Below are positions 13,440 to 29,879 of a stretch of 34,901 nt of DNA, piece by piece. The notes beneath the pieces were generated by a model that saw only the letters and a program-made list of their open reading frames with translations, did no database searches and was not told where the DNA came from. A program made the translations under genes and the position numbers. Each line of letters starts with the position of its first letter. The stretch's first letter is position 1. Source of the stretch: Rhodothermales bacterium (lineage in GTDB: Bacteria > Bacteroidota > Rhodothermia > Rhodothermales > ISCAR-4553); the NCBI GenBank assembly GCA_026984335.1, contig JALSSK010000451.1, positions 1 through 34,901 of the forward strand. Reading direction: 5' to 3'.

Positions 13440-14468
13440 ATGAAGAAAATCACCATCGATGAGGTCGCCCGGCTGGCGTTTGTCTCGCGTTCCGTTGTCT
13501 CGCGGGTGCTGAACAACCACCCGAACGTGAGCAAGGAGGCGCGGGCGCGGGTGCTCAAGGTCATCGAGGAATACAACTATCGCCCCAGTTCGGTGGCGCG
13601 CAGCCTGGTGACGGATCGCACGTTCGAGTTGTGCGTGCTCGCCCCGCGCCGCCGCGACGACGTGCTGGCGACCGGCTACTGGACGCTCGTCCTGCTCGGC
13701 ATCTCCGAGCGCAGCCTTCAGCGCGGCTACTTCGTCTCGATCACGATGGTCTCGGCGGACATGGGCGACGAGATCAACAACCGCATGCTGGCCAGCCACG
13801 CCTTCGACGGCTTCATCCTCATCGCGCACGACGTGATCAAGCTCGTCGCCAACGGCCTCCGCACCCGCCGCACGCCCATCGTGCTCATCGGGCACGATCC
13901 CAACTTCCCCGACCTGAACTCCGTCGATGGGGACAACTTCGACGGGGCGTATCAGGCGGGCGCGCACCTCGTCGGGCTGGGCTACCGGCGCATGGGGCTC
14001 ATGCTCGGCCCGCTCGACCTGCAGGAGACCATCGACCGGCGCGACGGGTTCGTCAAGGCGCTTCGGGAGGCCGGGCGTTCGATCGCCGAGGAGCACATCG
14101 CCGTGGGCGACTACTCACAGCAGAGCGGGTACGATTTGATGCGCCGGTGGATCGAGACGGGCCGCCCGCCGGAGGCCGTCTTTTGCACGAGCGACGTGCA
14201 GGCCATCGGCGTCTTGCTGGCGCTCTACCGGGCGGGCCTCCGGGTGCCCGAAGACGTGGCGCTCGTCGGCTTCGACGACCTGCCCAACTCGCGCTACACC
14301 ACGCCCCCGTTGACGACGGTGCACCAGCCCGTCTACGGCAAGGGCGAGCAGGCCGCCAACATCATCATCGACCAGATCGAGGGGAAACGGAGCGGCGTGG
14401 TGCACGAGAACCTGCCCGTCCGCCTCGTGGTGCGCGAGACGTGCGGCGCGCGGCAACGGGTCGTATGA
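13440..14468 (+). CDS. LacI family transcriptional regulator
   Basis: N-terminal HTH ITIDEVARLAFVSRSVVSRVLNNHPNVSKEARARVLKVIEEYNYRPSSVARSL; periplasmic-binding-like domain with VGFDDLPNSRYTTPPLTTVHQP. Confidence 0.97.
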   Translation: MKKITIDEVARLAFVSRSVVSRVLNNHPNVSKEARARVLKVIEEYNYRPSSVARSLVTDRTFELCVLAPRRRDDVLATGYWTLVLLGISERSLQRGYFVSITMVSADMGDEINNRMLASHAFDGFILIAHDVIKLVANGLRTRRTPIVLIGHDPNFPDLNSVDGDNFDGAYQAGAHLVGLGYRRMGLMLGPLDLQETIDRRDGFVKALREAGRSIAEEHIAVGDYSQQSGYDLMRRWIETGRPPEAVFCTSDVQAIGVLLALYRAGLRVPEDVALVGFDDLPNSRYTTPPLTTVHQPVYGKGEQAANIIIDQIEGKRSGVVHENLPVRLVVRETCGARQRVV

Positions 14469-14478
14469 GAGGGGCGGT

Positions 14479-16272
14479 TTATTCGAAGCGGAGACGGGGC
14501 CAGAGCCTGTAGATGCCCAGGAAGGAGCCCGCGGCGACGGCGACGAAGAACAGCCCGGTGAGCGGTCGTTCGTAGAGGAAGAAGCCGGTGGCGAAGAGCA
14601 CCGAATAGATGCCGAGCGCGCCGCAGACCGCCGCCGCCAGCCCGTAGGGGAGATCGGACGCCTCGGTCTCCACGGCGACGCCCTCGCGCAGGAGGGCCGC
14701 CTGCACCGCGCGCCAGCCCGGCCCGCCCGGACGAATGCGCCGGTAGAAACGTTTCAGCACCTCCGGGTCCGTGGGCGCCGTCGTATAGGCCACGAGCACC
14801 CACGCCGCCGTCGTCAGCGCCACGATGTAGAGCAGGCGTTGCCAGTCCGCCAGCCCGCCGCCCGGCCATGCCATGCGCCCGGCCACCTGAAAATAGACGG
14901 CCAGCAGGAACGATACGATCATCGCCGTCAGTTCCGTGGCCGCGTTGATGCGCCACCAGAACCACCGCAGGAGGAAGAGCAGCCCCGTCCCCGCGCCGAT
15001 CTGAAGCAGGATGTTGAAGACCTGCAGGGCGTTTTCGAGGAAGAGCGCCAGCGTGCACGCCACCACCATCAGCGCCACCGTCGCCGCGCGGCCCACCCAC
15101 ACCAGCTGCCGCTCGGCGGCCTCCGGGTTGAGGAACCGGTGATACAGGTCGTTGACGATGATCGACGAGCCCCAGTTGACCTGCGTAGACATCGTGGACA
15201 TGTAGGCCGCCGCCAGCGAGGTGACCACGAGGCCGAGGAGGCCGGAGGGCAGGAACGTGAGCATGGCCGGATAGCCGAGGTCGTTGCGGATCACCTGTGC
15301 GGACAGGTCCGGGAAGCGCTCGGCCATCATGCTCAGCTCGGGGAAGACGATCAGCGAGGCGAGCGCCACCAGGATCCACGGCCAGGGGCGCAGCGCATAG
15401 TGCAGGCCGTTGAACAGCAGGGTGGCCCCCACGGCATGCTTCTCGTCCTTCGCCGAGAGCATGCGTTGCACGATGTAGCCGCCGCCGCCCGGCTCGGCCC
15501 CCGGATAGTACGCCGCCCACCACTGCACCGCGAGGGGGATGAAGAAGACCGGCAGCATCTGCTGCCACGTCAGCTCCTCGAACGAGGGCCAGAACGAGAG
15601 CGCCGAACGCACGTTCTCGTGCGAGAAGAGCCCGTCGAGGCCGCCGACCTCCGGCATGTTCAAAATGTAGATCGCCGCGCCGATGGAGCCGCCGATGGCG
15701 ATGACGAACTGCACGAGGTCCGTCAGCACCACGCCGCGCAGGCCCCCGAGCGCGCTGTAGATCATCGTCACCGTGGCCGCCACCACCACCGTCTCGAGGG
15801 CCGACCACCCCATCATCACCCCTCCGATCTTGATGGCCGCCAGCGTCACCGACGCCATGATGATGATGTTGAACAGGATGCCCAGGTACACGGCCCGGAA
15901 GCCGCGCAGAAAGGCCGCCAGCTTGCCCGAATACCGGATCTCGTAGAACTCCACGTCGGTCAGCACCTCGGAGCGTCGCCAGAGCTTGGCGTAGAGGAAC
16001 ACCGTGAGCATGCCCGTCAGCAGGAAGGCCCACCACGTCCAGTTGCCGAAGATGCCGTCCGTGCGGATGATGTCCGTGACCAGGTTCGGCGTGTCGGTCG
16101 AGAAGGTGGTGGCGACCATCGAGACGCCGAGGAGCCACCACGGCATGTCGCGTCCGCCCAGGAAGTAGGCGTTGAAGTTTTTCCCGGATCGACCGGAGAC
16201 GGCCAGGCCGATGACGAGCGAAAGGGCAAAGAAGACGGCCATGATGGCCCAGTCGATACCGCCAAGCTGCAT
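14479..16272 (-). CDS. Sodium:solute symporter (SSS family)
   Basis: Start MQLGGIDWAIMAVFFALSLVIGLAVSGRSGKNFNAYFLGGRDMPWWLLGVSMVATTFSTDTPNLV; multiple TM segments typical of SSS. Confidence 0.93.
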   Translation of the reverse strand: MQLGGIDWAIMAVFFALSLVIGLAVSGRSGKNFNAYFLGGRDMPWWLLGVSMVATTFSTDTPNLVTDIIRTDGIFGNWTWWAFLLTGMLTVFLYAKLWRRSEVLTDVEFYEIRYSGKLAAFLRGFRAVYLGILFNIIIMASVTLAAIKIGGVMMGWSALETVVVAATVTMIYSALGGLRGVVLTDLVQFVIAIGGSIGAAIYILNMPEVGGLDGLFSHENVRSALSFWPSFEELTWQQMLPVFFIPLAVQWWAAYYPGAEPGGGGYIVQRMLSAKDEKHAVGATLLFNGLHYALRPWPWILVALASLIVFPELSMMAERFPDLSAQVIRNDLGYPAMLTFLPSGLLGLVVTSLAAAYMSTMSTQVNWGSSIIVNDLYHRFLNPEAAERQLVWVGRAATVALMVVACTLALFLENALQVFNILLQIGAGTGLLFLLRWFWWRINAATELTAMIVSFLLAVYFQVAGRMAWPGGGLADWQRLLYIVALTTAAWVLVAYTTAPTDPEVLKRFYRRIRPGGPGWRAVQAALLREGVAVETEASDLPYGLAAAVCGALGIYSVLFATGFFLYERPLTGLFFVAVAAGSFLGIYRLWPRLRFE

Positions 16273-16382
16273 GTGCGTATCCCCGTTGAATGACGTGTGC
16301 GGTGGAGGGACGAAGCAAGGACGACGGAGGCGCCTCGCGAAACGATGCGTGAAAATAGGGCACGGAAGGGGAGGAGACCGCA

Positions 16383-16418
16383 TGGAAACGCTTCCAGTTT
16401 GCCGTGGAAGCGTTTCCT
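16383..16418. promoter_or_regulatory. Two adjacent LacI-family operator-like palindromes, centres 22 bp apart
   Basis: TGGAAACGCTTCCA (16383-16396) and TGGAAGCGTTTCCT (16405-16418). Both have the CG-centred GGAANCGNTTCC pattern and lie between the divergent symporter and nagB genes of a LacI-containing locus. Confidence 0.82.
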
Positions 16419-16675: not shown

Positions 16676-18694
16676 ATGGTGACCCTCCCCTCCGCTCTTC
16701 CCACCCTCGTCCCGGAGCCGCTGGATCCTTCCTCACATACCGGAAACAGACTCGAACGCGTGCCGACGTTCATCTTCGAGACGCCCGAACAGGTCGCCTA
16801 TCAGGTGGCGCGGCGCGTGGCCAACCTGATCGAAGAGCGGCAGGCCGTCGGCAAAAACGTCGTGCTCGGACTGCCCACCGGCTCGACGCCCATCGGCGTC
16901 TACGGCCACCTCGTCCGGATGCACCGGGAGCAGGGCCTCGACTTTTCGAACGTCGTCACGTTCAACCTCGACGAATATTATCCCATGAACCCGGACAGCT
17001 TGCAAAGCTATCACCGGTTCATGCATGAACATTTTTTCAACCACGTGAACATCCCCCGCGAAAACATCCACATCCCGCGCGGGGACCTTCCCATCGAGGA
17101 GGTGGAGGACTACTGCCTGCACTACGAGCGCGCCATCGTGAAGGCGGGCGGGCTGGACCTCGTGCTGCTGGGCATCGGGCGGAGCGGACACATCGGCTTC
17201 AACGAGCCCGGCTCCGGCCCCGAGACGCGCACGCGCCTGGTCATGCTCGACGAGATCACGCGGAAGGACGCCGCAAGCGACTTTTTCGGCGAGGAGAACG
17301 TGCCGAGGCGGGCCGTCACGATGGGGGTGGGCACCATCCTGGACGCCCGGGAAGTGATCCTCATGGCCACCGGCGAGCACAAGGCGCTCATCATCCGCCG
17401 CGCCGTCGAAGAAGAGCCCACGCGCCAGGTGACGGCCTCGTACCTGCAACTCCACCGCGACGCCACGTTCTACGTGGATCGCCCCGCCGCCGGCGAACTG
17501 ACCCGCGAAAAAACACCGTGGCTCGTGCAGGAGGTGACCTGGGACGAAGGCCTCTCCAAGCGGGCCGTCATCTGGCTCTCGGAGAAGCTCGGCAAGGCGA
17601 TCCTCCAGCTCGAAGCCGCCGACTTTTACCGCCATCATCTGCAGGGCCTCCTGCACGCCGCCGGCGACGTCGATGCGCTGTGCCTCCGGGTCTTCGAAGA
17701 TCTCCGGCAGCGGATCCGCTATCCGGATAGCCTGGCCAGGAGCGAGCGCGTGATCGTCTTCAGCCCCCACCCGGACGACGACGTCATCTCCATGGGCGGC
17801 ATGCTCGACAAGCTCGTGCGCAACCGGAACGACGTCACCGTGGCCTACATGACCAACGGCTCGATGGCCGTCTTCGACGCGGACGTGCGCCGCATGCTCC
17901 GCTTCGTGGAGATGAGTATGCCGGCGCTCGGCATCGACGAGGCGAACCGGGAGGCGTTTCGAAAGACGAAAGAGCGTTACCTCCGCTTTCTCAAGAAGAA
18001 AAAACCCGGCGAGGTGGATCTGGAGCCGATCCAGCAGATCAAGGCGCACATCCGCTATGCCGAAGCCGTAGCCGCCATCGAGGTGCTGGGCCTCGACGAC
18101 GCCCACGCGCGCTTCCTCGATATGCCCTTCTATAAGACGGGTACGGTGCGGAAGGACCCCATCGGCGAGGCGGACGTGCAGGTGGTGCTCGCCCTGCTCC
18201 GCGAGATCGAGCCGGCCCATATCTTCGTGGCGGGCGACCTCTCGGATCCCCACGGCACGCACCGGATGTGCTACCGCGCCATCGAAGAGGCCTTGCTTCG
18301 GTACAACGCCGAACGCGGCGGCGAAGCGAAAACGACCCCGCACAACGGCGAAGCCGCCGGGGACGAGCAACCGAAGAAGACCCGGAAAGGACGGAAACGG
18401 CAAGCCGAACGCCCGCTCGTGTGGCTCTATCGGGGCGCGTGGCAAGAGTGGGAGATCGACAAGACGGACATCTTCATCCCGCTCTCGAAGGCCGACCTCG
18501 ACCGGAAGATCGAGGCCATCTTCAAGCACGAGAGCCAGAAGGACCGCGCCATGTTTCCGGGAGCGTACGACGAACGGGAGTTCTGGGAACGCGCCAAGGA
18601 CCGCAACCGCGAAACCGCCGCGGCGCTGAACCGATTGGGCCTGCCCGAGTTTTACGCCGCCGAGGCCTTTGTCACCACGTATGAGATGCCCTAG
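16676..18694 (+). CDS. nagB: Glucosamine-6-phosphate deaminase fused to PIG-L/LmbE-family deacetylase domain
   Basis: NagB domain: VVLGLPTGSTPIGVYGHL, FNLDEYYPM, GIGRSGHIGFNEPGS, ALTxGVGT-like VTMGVGTILDA. PIG-L domain from about 17750: VIVFSPHPDDDVISMGG and DPHGTHRMC. Confidence 0.93.
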   Translation: MVTLPSALPTLVPEPLDPSSHTGNRLERVPTFIFETPEQVAYQVARRVANLIEERQAVGKNVVLGLPTGSTPIGVYGHLVRMHREQGLDFSNVVTFNLDEYYPMNPDSLQSYHRFMHEHFFNHVNIPRENIHIPRGDLPIEEVEDYCLHYERAIVKAGGLDLVLLGIGRSGHIGFNEPGSGPETRTRLVMLDEITRKDAASDFFGEENVPRRAVTMGVGTILDAREVILMATGEHKALIIRRAVEEEPTRQVTASYLQLHRDATFYVDRPAAGELTREKTPWLVQEVTWDEGLSKRAVIWLSEKLGKAILQLEAADFYRHHLQGLLHAAGDVDALCLRVFEDLRQRIRYPDSLARSERVIVFSPHPDDDVISMGGMLDKLVRNRNDVTVAYMTNGSMAVFDADVRRMLRFVEMSMPALGIDEANREAFRKTKERYLRFLKKKKPGEVDLEPIQQIKAHIRYAEAVAAIEVLGLDDAHARFLDMPFYKTGTVRKDPIGEADVQVVLALLREIEPAHIFVAGDLSDPHGTHRMCYRAIEEALLRYNAERGGEAKTTPHNGEAAGDEQPKKTRKGRKRQAERPLVWLYRGAWQEWEIDKTDIFIPLSKADLDRKIEAIFKHESQKDRAMFPGAYDEREFWERAKDRNRETAAALNRLGLPEFYAAEAFVTTYEMP

Positions 18695-18748
18695 CCTTCG
18701 AGAGGTCCCGGCCTCATCCTCCGTCCGGAAGCATTGACGAAAAGCAGC

Positions 18749-19708
18749 ATGTCCCTTTCTTCGCCGCCCCGGCTTCTGGCCGGCATTGACATCGGAGGCA
18801 CGAACGTACGGTGTGCGCTGGCGCCCGTGGACCACCCGCAGGAGATCCTCGTCCGGAAGACCGGAGCCACGCCGGAGATGACGGAGCCGGAGCGCTTCGT
18901 GGCGTTCATCGCAGAGGAGGTGCGCGGGTGTCTCCGCTCGCTCGGGCGGGAGCCGGAGGCGCTCGCGGGCGTCGGCTGTGTGGCGCCGGGCATCACCGAC
19001 GTGGGCGCGGGGGTGGTGCTCTATGCCGCCAACCTGGACTGGGCGGACGCGCCGCTGACGGCCCTGCTCGAACAGCGCCTCGACGCGCCGTCGATCATCG
19101 AGAACGACGTCAACGCCGCCGCGATGGCGGAGTATGCCTTCGGAGCCGGGCGGGAGGCGCGCTCGCTCGTGTACCTGACCGTGAGCACCGGCGTGGCCGC
19201 GGGCATCGTGGTCGAGGGGCGGCTCTGGCGCGGCGCGCACCACGCCGCGGGCGAGCTCGGCTTCTTCATCCCCGACCCCCGCCACCTCGGCAAGGACTGG
19301 GGCCGCAACGGCTGTCTCGAACTGACGGCGGGCGGCGTGGGGCTGGCCCGCACGTGGGCCGAACGGCACGGCGGCAACGGCGCCCCCGGCGAGGCCGTAG
19401 AGGTCTTCGCGCAGGCCCGCAACGGCAACGCCGAGGCCGTCGACCTCGTCCATCGCGCCGCCGACTATCTGGCGCAGGCGGTGGTGGCCGTCGGCGCGCT
19501 CCTCGACCCCGAGGTGCTCGTGCTCGGCGGCAGCATCGCGCAGAACGAGGCGTGGATCGCCGGGCGCATCCGCGAGGTCGTCGCCGGGACGCTCCCGTTC
19601 CCGATGAAGATCGTGCATTCGAAACTTGGCGGCGACGCCCCGCTCCTCGGCGCGCTGGCCCTCGCCGCCCAAAACGTCCCCGCCGAGACCCCGCGCGTCG
19701 CCTCGTGA
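18749..19708 (+). CDS. ROK family sugar kinase (candidate N-acetylglucosamine/glucosamine kinase)
   Basis: LLAGIDIGGTNVRCAL, IENDVNAAAMAEY, GAHHAAGELGF, GCLE. ORF starts at 18734; ATG at 18749 is an alternative. Confidence 0.9.
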   Translation: MSLSSPPRLLAGIDIGGTNVRCALAPVDHPQEILVRKTGATPEMTEPERFVAFIAEEVRGCLRSLGREPEALAGVGCVAPGITDVGAGVVLYAANLDWADAPLTALLEQRLDAPSIIENDVNAAAMAEYAFGAGREARSLVYLTVSTGVAAGIVVEGRLWRGAHHAAGELGFFIPDPRHLGKDWGRNGCLELTAGGVGLARTWAERHGGNGAPGEAVEVFAQARNGNAEAVDLVHRAADYLAQAVVAVGALLDPEVLVLGGSIAQNEAWIAGRIREVVAGTLPFPMKIVHSKLGGDAPLLGALALAAQNVPAETPRVAS

Positions 19709-19825
19709 GTGACGCCGCCCGCGCGCGACGTCGCGCAGGGGAGGCGCAGGGTTGGAGGTCGCCGCCCGGTCGCGCGCCTCGGGGGCTTCCCTCATCCACA
19801 CATCCACACCAACCCCACCCACACC

Positions 19826-20929
19826 GTGACCCCCCGCCGTCTCGCATGGATGCTCGCCGCGCTCGGGAGCCTCGTCCCGGCGCTCGTCGTCGCGCAGCCG
19901 ACGCCCCGGCGGTACGTCTGCTACCGCGCCCCCGCGCCGCCGGTCATCGACGGGCGCCTCGACGAGGCGGCGTGGGCCGAAGCGCCGTGGACGGAAGCCT
20001 TCGTCGACATCGAGGGGGACGCGCGGCCCGCGCCCCGCTTCCGCACCCGCGCCAAAATGCTCTGGGACGACGAATATTTCTATGTGGCCGCCGTGATGGA
20101 GGAGCCGGACGTCTGGGCCACGCTCACCGAACGCGACGCCGTCATCTTCCACGACAACGACTTCGAGGTCTTCATCGACCCCGACGGCGACACGCACGAC
20201 TACTATGAGATCGAGGTCAACGCCCTCGCCACGGTGTGGGATCTGATGCTCCTCAAACCCTACCGCGACGGCGGCCCGCCCCTCGACGCATGGGACGTGC
20301 GGGGGCTGAAGACGGGCATCGACGTGGACGGCACGCTCAACCGCCCCGGCGACGCGGACCGGGGCTGGTCGGTGGAGCTGGCCATCCCGTGGCGCGTGCT
20401 CCGCGAGGCCGCGCCCGAACGCCGAAGGCCGCGCCCCGGCGAACAGTGGCGCGTCAACTTCTCCCGCGTCGAGTGGCGCGTGGAGGTCGCCGACGGCGCG
20501 TACGTGAAGCGCCGCGACCCGGACACGGGCAAGCCCTTGCCCGAGGACAACTGGGTGTGGTCGCCGCAGGGAGCCATTGCCATGCACATGCCCGAGCACT
20601 GGGGCTTCGTGCAGTTCTCGGGCCTCGTCGCCGGGACGGGGAAGGAGCCTTTCGCGCCGGATCCGAACGAGCGGGTGAGGCGCGCGCTCCGGGAGCTGTA
20701 CGAGCGGCAACGCGCGTACCGGGCGGCCCACGGGCGCTATGCCGCCGACCTCGCCGCGCTCCATGCGGAGGACCTCTCCGTGGAGGGCCTCGCCTTCGCG
20801 CCGGAGCTCTTCGTCACGGCGAGTATGTACGAGATCGTCGCCCCCGGCTTCGACGGCAAGACGGTGCACATCCGGGACGACGGAAAGGTGTGGATGGACG
20901 AACGCAAACCTGTGGAGGACGAACGATGA
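19826..20929 (+). CDS. Carbohydrate-binding family 9-like (CBM9-like) exported protein
   Basis: GTG at 19826 gives VTPRRLAWMLAALGSLVPALVVAQ signal; then PPVIDGRLDEAAWAEAPWTEAFVDIEG...LWDDEYFYVAAVMEEPDVWATL...FEVFIDPDGDTHDYYEIEVNALAT. Confidence 0.85.
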   Translation: MTPRRLAWMLAALGSLVPALVVAQPTPRRYVCYRAPAPPVIDGRLDEAAWAEAPWTEAFVDIEGDARPAPRFRTRAKMLWDDEYFYVAAVMEEPDVWATLTERDAVIFHDNDFEVFIDPDGDTHDYYEIEVNALATVWDLMLLKPYRDGGPPLDAWDVRGLKTGIDVDGTLNRPGDADRGWSVELAIPWRVLREAAPERRRPRPGEQWRVNFSRVEWRVEVADGAYVKRRDPDTGKPLPEDNWVWSPQGAIAMHMPEHWGFVQFSGLVAGTGKEPFAPDPNERVRRALRELYERQRAYRAAHGRYAADLAALHAEDLSVEGLAFAPELFVTASMYEIVAPGFDGKTVHIRDDGKVWMDERKPVEDER

Positions 20930-22014
20930 ACCGAAAACAGTTTCTGGCGCTCATGGCTTCGGGCGCGCTCGGCATGGCGGGGCGGCGGCTCCCGGCCTTT
21001 GCCGCTCCGACGGGCGCGGCTCCGGCCGCTTTTCCGCAAAAAAACTGGGCCTGGGTGGGCGGCGACTTCTCCGACATGGCGTCGCTGAAGCCGAAGTTCG
21101 CGCAGTGGCGCGCCGCCGGCATCGACGCGCTCCTCGTCCACGTGCGCGAGCCGGACGTGCTCGCGGGGATCGCGCCCGTGGCCGAGGCGGAAGGGCTGGA
21201 GACGCACGCCTGGATCCCCACGATGATGCGCGGCGGCATGGAGGAGACGCACCCCGAATGGTACGCCGTCAACCGGCTGGGGAAGTCCACCGCCACCGAC
21301 CCGCCGTACGTGCCCTATTACAAGTTCCTCTGCCCCACCCGCGAGCCGGTGCGCGCCTATCTGGCCGAAGACTACCGCCGCATGGCCGAGGTCCCCGGCG
21401 TGACGAGCCTCCACCTCGACTATATCCGCTACCCCGACGTCATCCTCCCCGTCGCGCTGTGGGAGAAGTACGACCTCGTTCAGGACAAGGAATACCCCGC
21501 GTTCGACTATTGCTATTGCGACGTGTGTCGCGCGAAGTTTCGGGACGAGCACGGCGTCGATCCGCTCGAGCTCGAAGACCCGCCCGCTTCGGAGGCGTGG
21601 CGGCGGTTCCGGTACGACCGCATCACCGAGGTGGTGGCGCTCCTGGCGGACGTGGCGCATGCCGGAGACCGGCAGCTCACGGCGGCGGTCTTCCCCACGC
21701 CCGACATCGCGCGGCGGCTCGTCCGGCAGGACTGGCCCCGGTGGGACCTCGACGCGGTGATGCCCATGATCTACCACAGTTTTTACGAGAAGCCCGTGGC
21801 GTGGATCGAGGAGGCGACGCGGGAAGGCGTGACGGCGCTCGGCGGCCGGATGCCGCTCTATGCCGGGTTGTTCGTCCCCGCCTTCACCCCCGACGAGCTG
21901 GCCGAGGCCGCGCGGCGCGCGCGGGCCGGCGGCGCCTCCGGCATCGTGATCTTCGAAGCGAAGGCTCCCACGCCCGAACACTGGACCAAACTCTCCGCGG
22001 TGATCCAATCATGA
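20926..22014 (+). CDS. Putative glycoside hydrolase-like (GHL10/family 10-like) exported TIM barrel protein
   Basis: ATG overlaps upstream stop (ATGA). N-terminal signal MNRKQFLALMASGALGMAGRRLPAFAAP; VTSLHLDYIRYPD and DAVMPMIYHSFYEKP motifs as in GHL10-type proteins. Confidence 0.72.
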   Translation: MNRKQFLALMASGALGMAGRRLPAFAAPTGAAPAAFPQKNWAWVGGDFSDMASLKPKFAQWRAAGIDALLVHVREPDVLAGIAPVAEAEGLETHAWIPTMMRGGMEETHPEWYAVNRLGKSTATDPPYVPYYKFLCPTREPVRAYLAEDYRRMAEVPGVTSLHLDYIRYPDVILPVALWEKYDLVQDKEYPAFDYCYCDVCRAKFRDEHGVDPLELEDPPASEAWRRFRYDRITEVVALLADVAHAGDRQLTAAVFPTPDIARRLVRQDWPRWDLDAVMPMIYHSFYEKPVAWIEEATREGVTALGGRMPLYAGLFVPAFTPDELAEAARRARAGGASGIVIFEAKAPTPEHWTKLSAVIQS

Positions 22015-23198
22015 CGACCTCTTCGACCATGGCCTCCGCGCCCGCGACGGCCTCCGCCCCGGCCTCCGACCCGCTCGCGGACAGCCCGCTCCTCAAAAAA
22101 CGCTTCGTCGCCCTCGACGCCTTTCGCGGCCTCACCATCGCCGGGATGATCCTCGTCAACACGCCGGGGAGCTGGTCGTACGTGTACGCGCCGCTTCGCC
22201 ATTCGGAATGGCACGGCGCCACGCCCACCGACCTCGTCTTCCCCTTCTTCCTCTTCATCGTCGGCGCGGCGATGTGGTTCTCTTTCGCCAAATACGACCA
22301 CCGGCCCACCCCGGCGGCGCTCAAGAAGACGGCGCGGCGCGTGGTGATCATCTTCGCCATCGGGATGCTCGTGCTCAACGGCTTCCCGTACGTCCGCGAC
22401 TATTCGACGCTCCGCATCATGGGCGTGCTTCAGCGGATCGCGCTGGCGTACGGCCTCGGCGCGTTGCTCTGTCTCTACCTCAAGCCGAAGCAACTCGTCG
22501 TGGCGGCGGCGGGCATCCTCGTGGGGTACTGGCTTTTACTATGGGGCTTCGGCGGGGCGGACCCGTACGGGCTGGAGACGAACCTTCCCCGGCGCGTCGA
22601 CCTCTTCGTCTTCGGAGAGAACCACGTGTACAAAGGCTTCGGCGTGCCGTTCGATCCGGAAGGGCTGCTCAGCACCCTCCCCGCCGCCGTGACGGTCGTC
22701 CTCGGCTACCTCACCGGGCGGCTCATCCACTCGGAGGCCCGGCTCGAAGACGCCGTGCTCAAAATGTTGCTCGCGGGCACGGCGCTGATCTTCGGCGGGC
22801 TGGTGTGGGACCTCGCCTTCCCCATCAACAAGCCGCTGTGGACGAGCTCGTACGTGCTCTATACCGGCGGCATCGCGATGGTGTGCCTGGCGTGGTTCGT
22901 CTGGCTGATCGATGTGAAAGGATACAAGGCATGGACACACCCGCTCCGGGTCTTCGGCATGAACCCGCTCTTCGTGTACGTGCTCTCGATCTTCTGGGTG
23001 CTCGTGCTGATCTACTGGGTGCGGGCGCCCGCCGGCGGCGGCGAGACGACGAGCGGTTACGGCTGGCTGTACCGGAACGTCTTCGTCGCCCTCGCCGGCC
23101 CGATGAACGGCTCGCTCCTCTTCGCCCTCGCCCACGTGGTCCTCTTCTGGTTCGTCGCCTGGGTGCTCTACCGGCGACGCATCTTCATCAAGATATGA
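22011..23198 (+). CDS. NagX-like / heparan-alpha-glucosaminide N-acetyltransferase-like (DUF5009) multi-pass membrane protein
   Basis: RFVALDAFRGLTIAGMILVNTPGSWSYVYAPLRHSEWHGATPTDLVFPFFLFIVGAAM is diagnostic; ATGA overlap with upstream stop. Confidence 0.9.
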   Translation: MTTSSTMASAPATASAPASDPLADSPLLKKRFVALDAFRGLTIAGMILVNTPGSWSYVYAPLRHSEWHGATPTDLVFPFFLFIVGAAMWFSFAKYDHRPTPAALKKTARRVVIIFAIGMLVLNGFPYVRDYSTLRIMGVLQRIALAYGLGALLCLYLKPKQLVVAAAGILVGYWLLLWGFGGADPYGLETNLPRRVDLFVFGENHVYKGFGVPFDPEGLLSTLPAAVTVVLGYLTGRLIHSEARLEDAVLKMLLAGTALIFGGLVWDLAFPINKPLWTSSYVLYTGGIAMVCLAWFVWLIDVKGYKAWTHPLRVFGMNPLFVYVLSIFWVLVLIYWVRAPAGGGETTSGYGWLYRNVFVALAGPMNGSLLFALAHVVLFWFVAWVLYRRRIFIKI

Positions 23199-24349
23199 AC
23201 GGCAATGGACGACCCCTGCGGGCGGCGGCCTTCGCGCTGGCGCTGACGGCGCTCGCCGCCGGCCTGACCGCGTGCGACGAGGCGCGGGAAGGTCATGCGC
23301 CGGCGGAGACCTACCGGCTCGTCGGCTACCTCTTCGGTCCGCGCGGGGGGGAGGTGCGCGAGGCCGACGCGGCCCGCCTCACACATATCAACTATGCCTT
23401 CGCCAACGTGCGCAACGACTCCGTGGTGCTCGAAAGCCCCGACGACCCCCCCCGTCTGGCGACGCTCCGGGCCGGGCATCCGGAGCTCAGGATCCTGCTC
23501 TCCGTCGGCGGGTGGTCGTGGTCGGAAAACTTCTCCGACGCCGCGCTCACCGAGGCGTCCCGCGAGACGTTCGCGCAAAGCGCCGTGGCTCTGATGACCC
23601 GCTTCGCACTCGACGGCCTCGACATCGACTGGGAGTATCCGGGGCAGCCCGGCGAGGACAACGTGTATCGCGAAGCGGACCGGGAAAACTTCACGCTGCT
23701 CCTCCGGACGCTCCGCGAGCGCCTCGACCGGCAGAGCGACCGCGACGGTCGCGCCGAAGGGCGGCGCTATGAACTGACCATCGCCGCCGGAGCGGGCGAG
23801 GAGTATCTGGCGCACACCGACCTCGGCGCCGCCGCCGAATACCTCGACTTCATCAACCTGATGACGTACGATTTCCACGGTCCGTGGACGGAGCGCACGG
23901 GGCATCACGCCAACCTGTACCCGCCGTCGGGCGTCGCGGCGCCTTCGGGTGCGGAGGCGGTGGAGGCGCTGCTTCGAGCGGGCGTTCCGGCGCGGAAGGT
24001 CGTGCTCGGGGCGGCCTTCTACGGCTACGGCTGGCGCGGCGTCCGCCCGGAGAACGACGGGTTGTATCAGCCCTATGAGGGGCGGGTCGAAAGCTATCCC
24101 TACCACGTGCTCGCCGGCCGGTACGTCGGCAGGAACGGCTACGAGCGACACTGGGACGACGCGGCGAAGGCGCCGTATCTCTGGCAGCCGGACTCGCTCG
24201 TCTTCATCTCCTACGAAGACGAGGCGTCGCTCCGGGAAAAGGGCCGGTACGCGCGGGAGAAGGGGCTGGGCGGCGTCATGTACTGGGAGCACACCGGCGA
24301 CGCGGACGGGGCGCTCCTGAAGGCGCTGTATGAGGCCCTTCATGGCTAG
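23195..24349 (+). CDS. Glycoside hydrolase family 18 chitinase-like lipoprotein
   Basis: Catalytic motif DGLDIDWEYPG (DGxDxDWE), SVGGW (SxGG), N-terminal signal ALTALAAGLTACDE; ATGA overlap with upstream stop. Confidence 0.93.
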   Translation: MNGNGRPLRAAAFALALTALAAGLTACDEAREGHAPAETYRLVGYLFGPRGGEVREADAARLTHINYAFANVRNDSVVLESPDDPPRLATLRAGHPELRILLSVGGWSWSENFSDAALTEASRETFAQSAVALMTRFALDGLDIDWEYPGQPGEDNVYREADRENFTLLLRTLRERLDRQSDRDGRAEGRRYELTIAAGAGEEYLAHTDLGAAAEYLDFINLMTYDFHGPWTERTGHHANLYPPSGVAAPSGAEAVEALLRAGVPARKVVLGAAFYGYGWRGVRPENDGLYQPYEGRVESYPYHVLAGRYVGRNGYERHWDDAAKAPYLWQPDSLVFISYEDEASLREKGRYAREKGLGGVMYWEHTGDADGALLKALYEALHG

Positions 24350-28679: not shown

Positions 28680-29879
28680 TCAGCCCGGAAAGCAGAGCTT
28701 GCCGAGGAGCGTCGGGCGGGCGGCGCCGGTGACGGAGGGGAGGTTCGTCGGCACGCCGTTGACCGTCTCGTGCGCGAGCACGGCGAAACAGAGCGCCTCC
28801 TTCGCGTCGGGGTCGATGCCGTAGGCGGCGACGGAGCGGACGGGCGCGGGCGCGAAGGCTTCCGCGAGGCGGGCCATGAGGAAGGCGTTGTGGACACCGC
28901 CGCCGGAGACGATGAGCGCCTCGAGCCGGCGGCCCGGAGCGACGAAGCGCGCGTACGCGTCGTGGATCGAACGGACGGTGAGCATCGCCGCCGTCGCCAT
29001 GAGGTCGGCGGGGTCGGTGATGCCGAGGGCGGCGGCGCGGGCCTCCATCGCCGCGACGAAGGCGTCGCCGAAGTCCTCGCGCCCGGTGGAACGGGGGGGC
29101 GTCCGGGCGAAGAAAGGGTGGGCGAGGAGCTCCGCGAGCAGGGTTTCGCGCACCCGTCCCCGCGCGGCGAGCGCGCCGCCGGCGTCGTAGGCCGCGCCGA
29201 GCCGGCGGCGGGCGAGGGCGTCGAGCACCATGTTGGCGGGGCCGGTGTCGAAGGCGGAGACGGCCCCGGGCGGGGCGCCGGCGGGAAGGACGGTGAGGTT
29301 GGCGATGCCGCCGAGGTTGAGCAGCCCGCGCGTCTCGGCGTCGTCGGAGAAGAGGGCGTAGTCGAAGTACGGCGCGAGGGGCGCGCCCTGCCCCCCGAGC
29401 GCCACGTCGGCCGTGCGGAAGTCGCCCACGACGGGGAGGCCGAGGAGGTTGGCGAGCATCGAGGGGTCTCCGATCTGAAGGGTGGACGCGGTGGGCAGGC
29501 CCGCGCACGGCTCGGCCTTCGGCACGTGGTGGACCGTCTGCCCGTGCGAGCCGACGAGGTCGAGGTCGGCCACGGCGAGGCCGGCTTCGGCGGCGGCGGC
29601 GCGCACGGCTTCGGCGTACGTGTGGGCGAGGCGGGCGTTGAGCTGCGAGAGGGCGCGGACGGAGGAGGTCTCGGGCGCGGAGTTGGCCAGGAGCGCCGTA
29701 CGGAGCGCCTCCGGGTACGGAAGGCTCACGAAGGCGAGCGCTTCGAGGCGAAGGGCGCGCCCGCTTCCCGAGAGCCGCGCCACGGCCGCATCCACGCCGT
29801 CGAGCGAGGTGCCGCTCATCAACCCGGCGACGAGGCGGGTCTCTTTCGCGAAGAGCCGCGCGAAGGGGGGAGGCGTCAT
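28680..29879 (-). CDS. anmK: Anhydro-N-acetylmuramic acid kinase
   Basis: VAGLMSGTSLDGVDAAVARL, DLVGSHGQTVHHVP, LQIGDPSMLANLLGLPVVGDFRTADVALGGQGAPLAPYFD, LNLGGIANLTVL, FDTGPANMVLDAL. Confidence 0.97.
   Translation of the reverse strand: MTPPPFARLFAKETRLVAGLMSGTSLDGVDAAVARLSGSGRALRLEALAFVSLPYPEALRTALLANSAPETSSVRALSQLNARLAHTYAEAVRAAAAEAGLAVADLDLVGSHGQTVHHVPKAEPCAGLPTASTLQIGDPSMLANLLGLPVVGDFRTADVALGGQGAPLAPYFDYALFSDDAETRGLLNLGGIANLTVLPAGAPPGAVSAFDTGPANMVLDALARRRLGAAYDAGGALAARGRVRETLLAELLAHPFFARTPPRSTGREDFGDAFVAAMEARAAALGITDPADLMATAAMLTVRSIHDAYARFVAPGRRLEALIVSGGGVHNAFLMARLAEAFAPAPVRSVAAYGIDPDAKEALCFAVLAHETVNGVPTNLPSVTGAARPTLLGKLCFPG

Follow-up and report, generated by a model that had tools for sequence, protein, structure and literature searches.

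A 672-residue protein encoded in the 34,901-nucleotide stretch of Rhodothermales DNA analysed here (the window) joins a NagB domain to a PIG-L/LmbE domain, and we propose that it is a bifunctional GlcNAc-6-P deacetylase/GlcN-6-P deaminase that replaces NagA, a reading to which we assign a probability of about 0.64. A broader proposal, to which we give somewhat better than even odds, is that the PIG-L halves of these fusions make up a class of GlcNAc-6-P deacetylase independent of NagA, each attached to a deaminase of the Ser/Thr type, with one polypeptide leading from GlcNAc-6-P to fructose-6-P and forming the main exit for GlcNAc-6-P in Rhodothermales and in many other bacteria of the Bacteroidota group, whose pathway at present seems to be without its deacetylase. 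The basis of the proposal is sequence and genome comparison: conserved residues, phylogenetic distribution, gene linkage and the separable decay of the two halves. The deaminase assignment is strong. We infer that the deacetylase substrate is GlcNAc-6-P from pathway logic, namely the absence of NagA, the presence of MurQ and the linkage, and what is said below of substrates, catalysis and any hand-over between the sites is prediction.

According to this proposal, GlcNAc-6-P would come from two sources: MurNAc recycling, by AnmK and then MurQ, and GlcNAc that is imported and then phosphorylated by the ROK kinase encoded next door. The C-terminal PIG-L domain (a zinc deacetylase) would strip the acetyl group from GlcNAc-6-P in NagA's place, and the N-terminal NagB domain would turn the resulting GlcN-6-P into fructose-6-P and ammonia by deamination and isomerisation, with Asp99 as the proton-shuttling base and His172, together with Glu177, opening the ring. 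NagA itself is an amidohydrolase-type enzyme, and the PIG-L half would carry out the same reaction with an unrelated fold. The gene and its two domains are located as follows.

16676..18694, + strand: NagB–PIG-L fusion, 672 aa (NF002557/PRK02122)
16781..17455, + strand: NagB domain (Glucosamine_iso, PF01182), residues 36-260 (Pfam 87.5 bits; fold match to 2bkv/1dea)
17753..18292, + strand: PIG-L/LmbE zinc de-N-acetylase domain (PF02585), residues 360-539 (Pfam 69.5 bits)

The architecture has already been catalogued, in line with an earlier note on this DNA, which held it to be known in Bacteroidota: the NCBIfam profile NF002557/PRK02122 spans residues 22-670 of 672, covering both domains, and scores 935 bits (cut-off 384), a match well beyond chance. 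The name of that family, 'glucosamine-6-phosphate deaminase-like protein', gives the deaminase-like function alone, and the deacetylase role proposed here is absent from it. The NagB part also passes the NCBIfam nagB equivalog TIGR00502 (259.7 bits, cut-off 236.9). An AlphaFold2 model of the fusion is confident (pLDDT 89, pTM 0.85), and its NagB half matches the monomeric Bacillus subtilis NagB 2bkv with an rmsd of 1.1-1.2 Å over about 245 alignment columns and the E. coli enzyme 1dea with 1.3 Å. A full-text literature search returned no characterisation of a NagB–PIG-L fusion and no biochemistry. It also counts against the proposal that deletion of a chitin-locus nagB in F. johnsoniae was without phenotype and the protein was not expressible (PMC5127042), although this gene may not be the fusion described here. 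An antisense open reading frame of 1378 aa (window 16733-20869, − strand) runs across the fusion and the kinase gene; the high GC content most likely accounts for it.

The residues of the NagB half that bear on its activity are these.

16970..16972, + strand: Asp99, equivalent to the E. coli catalytic Asp72 (145/147 fusions)
17183..17185, + strand: Ser170 (AGC), equivalent to E. coli Asp141 and to Asn in B. subtilis
17189..17191, + strand: His172, equivalent to E. coli His143 (146/147 fusions)
17204..17206, + strand: Glu177, equivalent to E. coli Glu148 (147/147 fusions)
17276-17281 of the window: residues 201-202 (Ser, Asp), the position of E. coli Arg172 and the residue after it, from the fusion alignment
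17381..17383, + strand: Lys236, equivalent to E. coli Lys208 (147/147 fusions)

The NagB motif of the fusion reads L-GIGRSGHIGFNEPGS, with Ser170 inside it, and the corresponding motif of E. coli K-12 NagB, read from the genome, is GVGNDGHIAFNEPAS. Reading of the open reading frame and alignment both bear out the earlier observation that Ser stands where E. coli has Asp141 and that the catalytic set of NagB deaminases (Asp72, His143 and Glu148) is otherwise retained, as Asp99, His172 and Glu177. The suggestion that this Ser is unusual or impairing was not supported: when the window protein was aligned with 146 fusions from genome collections, the position was occupied by Thr in 80 proteins, Ser in 50, Asn in 15 and Asp in 2, and where the deaminase is lost in relatives the loss shows at Asp99, which is intact here. 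The earlier note had named, as one result that would overturn its reading, a dispensable Asp and a Ser universal in active homologues. Much of this was found: Ser or Thr in 130 of 147 homologues and Asn in the deaminase of B. subtilis, the closest one with a solved structure. Asp at this position does not define the family, because Asn is present both in the B. subtilis deaminase and in 18 of the 23 stand-alone NagBs of the sampled genomes (the remainder have Asp, 3, or Thr, 2). The B. subtilis protein (2bkv/2bkx) is the best PDB sequence match to the NagB half, and the title of 2bkv is 'Structure and kinetics of a monomeric glucosamine-6-phosphate deaminase'. A single base separates the Ser codon AGC from the Asn codon AAC, and in a tree of NagB domains, weakly supported at its deep forks, the fusions do not group with the Asp type of E. 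coli and are surrounded by Asn types.

Ser for Asp is therefore ordinary for the NagB–PIG-L family and presents no catalytic anomaly to chase; given the Ser/Thr norm and the B. subtilis Asn, we rejected Ser170 as a sign that the active site is dead or novel. In the E. coli enzyme, Asp141 has been assigned to the allosteric activator site (PMC4281351). Another allosteric residue of the E. coli enzyme, Lys160, is replaced by Val or Ile in 146 of 147 fusions (Val in the window protein), and the Arg158 equivalent is kept as Arg187. Since Asp141 belongs to the activator site and the fusions are without Lys160, we infer that replacement of Asp141 accompanies a non-allosteric deaminase rather than a loss of catalysis; Ser170 would leave the deaminase active, position 141 tolerating Asn, Thr and Ser in the non-allosteric branch. 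Whether Ser/Thr is a consequence of the fusion was also considered: the split, unfused NagB of genome G199 (described below) has Asn, but Thr also turns up in NagBs that stand alone (L127, L083_2), and the link is loose. The Thr-bearing stand-alone NagB at L083 (7980-10761) lies directly upstream of a fusion. Genome G030 holds a 902-bp NagB-only partial copy of the fusion gene (L124 1-902), 98.9% identical and with Asn for Ser, which occupies the first bases of its contig. This copy could be an artefact of the assembly edge and was kept out of the evidence.

The fusion can be compared with two solved deaminases. The hexameric, allosteric E. coli NagB (1dea/1cd5) is about 41% identical and shares Asp72, His143, Glu148 and Lys208, but differs from the window protein in Asp141 (Ser), Lys160 (Val) and Arg172 (Ser) and has no PIG-L domain. 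B. subtilis NagB resembles the fusion in having a residue other than Asp at the triad position, yet that residue is Asn rather than Ser/Thr, the protein stands alone and its Arg172 equivalent is retained. Lys208 of E. coli NagB, which we take to be phosphate-binding, has an invariant equivalent in the fusions, and the NagB phosphate loop is conserved in the alignment as well. The position of Arg172, in E. coli presumably a phosphate ligand, is Ser201 in the window protein and varies across the fusions (S, K, R, G, A, Y), with the following Asp202 mostly conserved, so that phosphate binding may differ and phosphate recognition in the NagB half may be rearranged, a point against the proposal. 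This change, which the earlier note did not mention, is perhaps more telling than Ser170. As a sign of an unphosphorylated substrate, the lost Arg172 equivalent has to be read beside the variation of that position among fusions and the invariance of the Lys208 equivalent.

A NagB half made non-catalytic by Ser170, and serving instead as a sugar-phosphate sensor or as a scaffold for the deacetylase, would fit the replacement of Asp141 in 145 of 147 fusions, the variable Arg172 position and the occurrence of NagB halves without Asp99. We consider it highly improbable given the near-invariance of the Asp72, His143, Glu148 and Lys208 equivalents across the same 147 proteins, the Asn that B. subtilis NagB carries at the same position, the separate NagB that accompanies the loss of Asp99 in each of the four genomes of family f7 (below) and the lack of any other NagB in the window genome.

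The PIG-L half carries both of the zinc/catalytic motifs by which PIG-L/LmbE proteins are recognised, (P/A)HPDD and HxxH.

17765..17782, + strand: PHPDDD motif, residues 364-369, with His365, Asp367 and Asp368 (His365 and Asp368 in 147/147 fusions, Asp367 in 144/147)
18251..18262, + strand: HGTH, second PIG-L motif, residues 526-529, with His526 and His529 (146/147 and 145/147 fusions)

The first of these is the zinc motif that had been noticed in the C-terminal half from the letters, and it falls within the Pfam PIG-L match. As in other PIG-L enzymes, Asp367 would be the base and Asp368 a zinc ligand. A PDB search and fold matching of the model both give diacetylchitobiose deacetylases as the nearest solved relatives, and the Pyrococcus enzyme (8bgo, 3we7, 4xm0) has the same PHPDD core; unlike the fusion, however, it is archaeal and stand-alone, and its identity to the PIG-L half is low (16-18%). 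We take its substrate to be unphosphorylated chitobiose/GlcNAc, and known PIG-L enzymes act on unphosphorylated GlcNAc conjugates, which counts against GlcNAc-6-P as the substrate here.

The surroundings of the fusion in the window are as follows.

13440..14468, + strand: LacI-type regulator (profile search)
14479..16383, − strand: SSS-family sodium:solute symporter (profile search, Pfam and NCBIfam)
18734..19708, + strand: ROK-family sugar kinase, next downstream of the fusion, a putative GlcNAc/amino-sugar kinase (Pfam ROK 190 bits)
22011..23198, + strand: NagX/HGSNAT-like membrane protein (PF07786 41 bits; linked in 8 other loci)
23195..24349, + strand: GH18 glycoside hydrolase, chitinase-like (PF00704 270 bits)
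28680..29879, − strand: AnmK, anhydro-MurNAc kinase (PF03702 366 bits)

Genes for CBM9-like and GHL10-like proteins are listed between the ROK kinase and the NagX-like gene, and the gene order of the window locus is retained in a family member (L107). AnmK, about 10 kb from the fusion, ties the region to peptidoglycan recycling towards GlcNAc-6-P. At distant loci the ROK kinase is the commonest immediate neighbour (20 of 93 neighbours scanned), followed by amidase_2, AnmK and GH20 among others; MurQ lies at most four genes from the fusion in 7 loci and NagX is linked in 8.

The window genome is 97% complete, and in it the fusion is the sole gene of the NagB superfamily (PF01182). MurQ is present and no NagA (TIGR00221) scores over the cut-off anywhere in the genome, weak short fragments being the only matches, so the missing NagA of the earlier note holds genome-wide. 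Among 40 genomes of the order, MurQ was found in all 40, the fusion over cut-off in 36 and NagA in none. In a sample of 198 genomes of the phylum, with NagA counted at 150 bits or more, the fusion occurs in 77, NagA in 32 and MurQ in 141; MurQ is present in all 77 fusion genomes and in every NagA genome, and the association of fusion with MurQ has p = 7e-16, a value that ignores shared descent. NagA is absent from 57 of the 77 fusion genomes, and in the genomes of the compared fusion loci there was no NagA match in 15 of 24 fusion carriers. In families f17 and f35, open reading frames of ~785-820 aa match positions 141-446 of the fusion profile.

These distributions bear on a different order of events, the archaeal chitin route, in which deacetylation precedes phosphorylation: the PIG-L half would take free GlcNAc or chitobiose as its substrate, leaving glucosamine to be phosphorylated by the ROK kinase and GlcN-6-P to be deaminated by the NagB half. 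The archaeal diacetylchitobiose deacetylases as nearest solved relatives, and a window locus holding both a ROK kinase and a GH18 enzyme, speak for such a route. We regard it as possible but unlikely, as MurQ in 77/77 fusion genomes supplies GlcNAc that is already phosphorylated, AnmK and MurQ adjoin the fusion in several lineages and NagA is absent from most.

Some of the same counts weigh against replacement of NagA. The 20 of 77 fusion genomes that do encode NagA are one such point, and mutual exclusion of fusion and NagA within the MurQ-positive genomes of the 198-genome sample was not significant (p = 0.32). A further 52 MurQ-positive genomes (G042, G069, G077, G081, G159, G175 and others) have neither NagA nor fusion, and the six of them that were searched have no PF01182 gene; MurQ thus need not always go together with a GlcNAc-6-P deacetylase. 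In two planctomycetes (G220, G221) the NagB half is eroded beside a separate canonical NagB, and the PIG-L half is kept despite NagA homologues that are divergent and, at about 216-218 bits, fall short of the cut-off, which also counts against NagA replacement.

The planctomycetes would also suit a PIG-L half whose substrate is unrelated, such as some GlcNAc conjugate from thiol or cell-wall metabolism, with the fusion merely co-regulating two pathways; the substrates of the PIG-L family are diverse, and the N-terminal motif is weakly similar to BshB1/BshB2. We think this very unlikely, in that the neighbours and the distribution of the fusion track genes of amino-sugar and peptidoglycan recycling and NagA is missing from nearly three quarters of the fusion genomes.

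Natural variants provide a further line of evidence for two functions in one chain. Within the order, four genomes of family f7 (G167, G207, G212 and G217; loci L118, L231, L232 and L192) have Asp99 changed to Ala, Ser, Asn and Ala, respectively. Three of these fusions could be read full length and all three keep their PIG-L motifs (the fusion of G217 is broken by contig ends). Each of the four genomes also encodes a separate NagB whose motifs are intact (in G212 with a stop within the stretch first matched); NagA was found in none of the four. The two planctomycetes mentioned above resemble this family in their eroded NagB half and separate NagB, but have the divergent NagA homologues as well. 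The reciprocal case occurs in genus g21 of family f11 of the class, where second fusion copies (L166, L168 and L170, in G108, G171 and G119) carry Asp367Ala beside an intact NagB half, two of the three with further His losses in PIG-L. These copies have lost 9-11 of 76 conserved PIG-L columns, compared with 0-1 of 63 NagB columns. Each of the three genomes also encodes another fusion with no loss, and in G108 a free-standing PIG-L gene adjoins the decayed copy. Finally, G199, which belongs to the same order, encodes PIG-L and an Asn-type NagB as two adjacent genes about 24 bp apart (L190 5175-6850, − strand). Since the halves decay separately, with cover elsewhere in the genome, it looks as if the lost half is covered by another gene of the same genome and each half is a function in its own right. 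Together with the absence of NagA, universal MurQ and the neighbourhood, this reciprocal decay lends support to the idea, already put forward in the earlier note, that deacetylase and deaminase in one chain would explain the missing NagA.

If the bifunctional reading is right, a widespread 'deaminase-like' protein would be the GlcNAc-6-P deacetylase that had been missing from a large group of bacteria that recycle chitin and peptidoglycan, and pathway annotation based on NagA would wrongly score their amino-sugar pathway as incomplete. The genomes in which one half of the fusion is dead are ready-made natural mutants for its division of labour.
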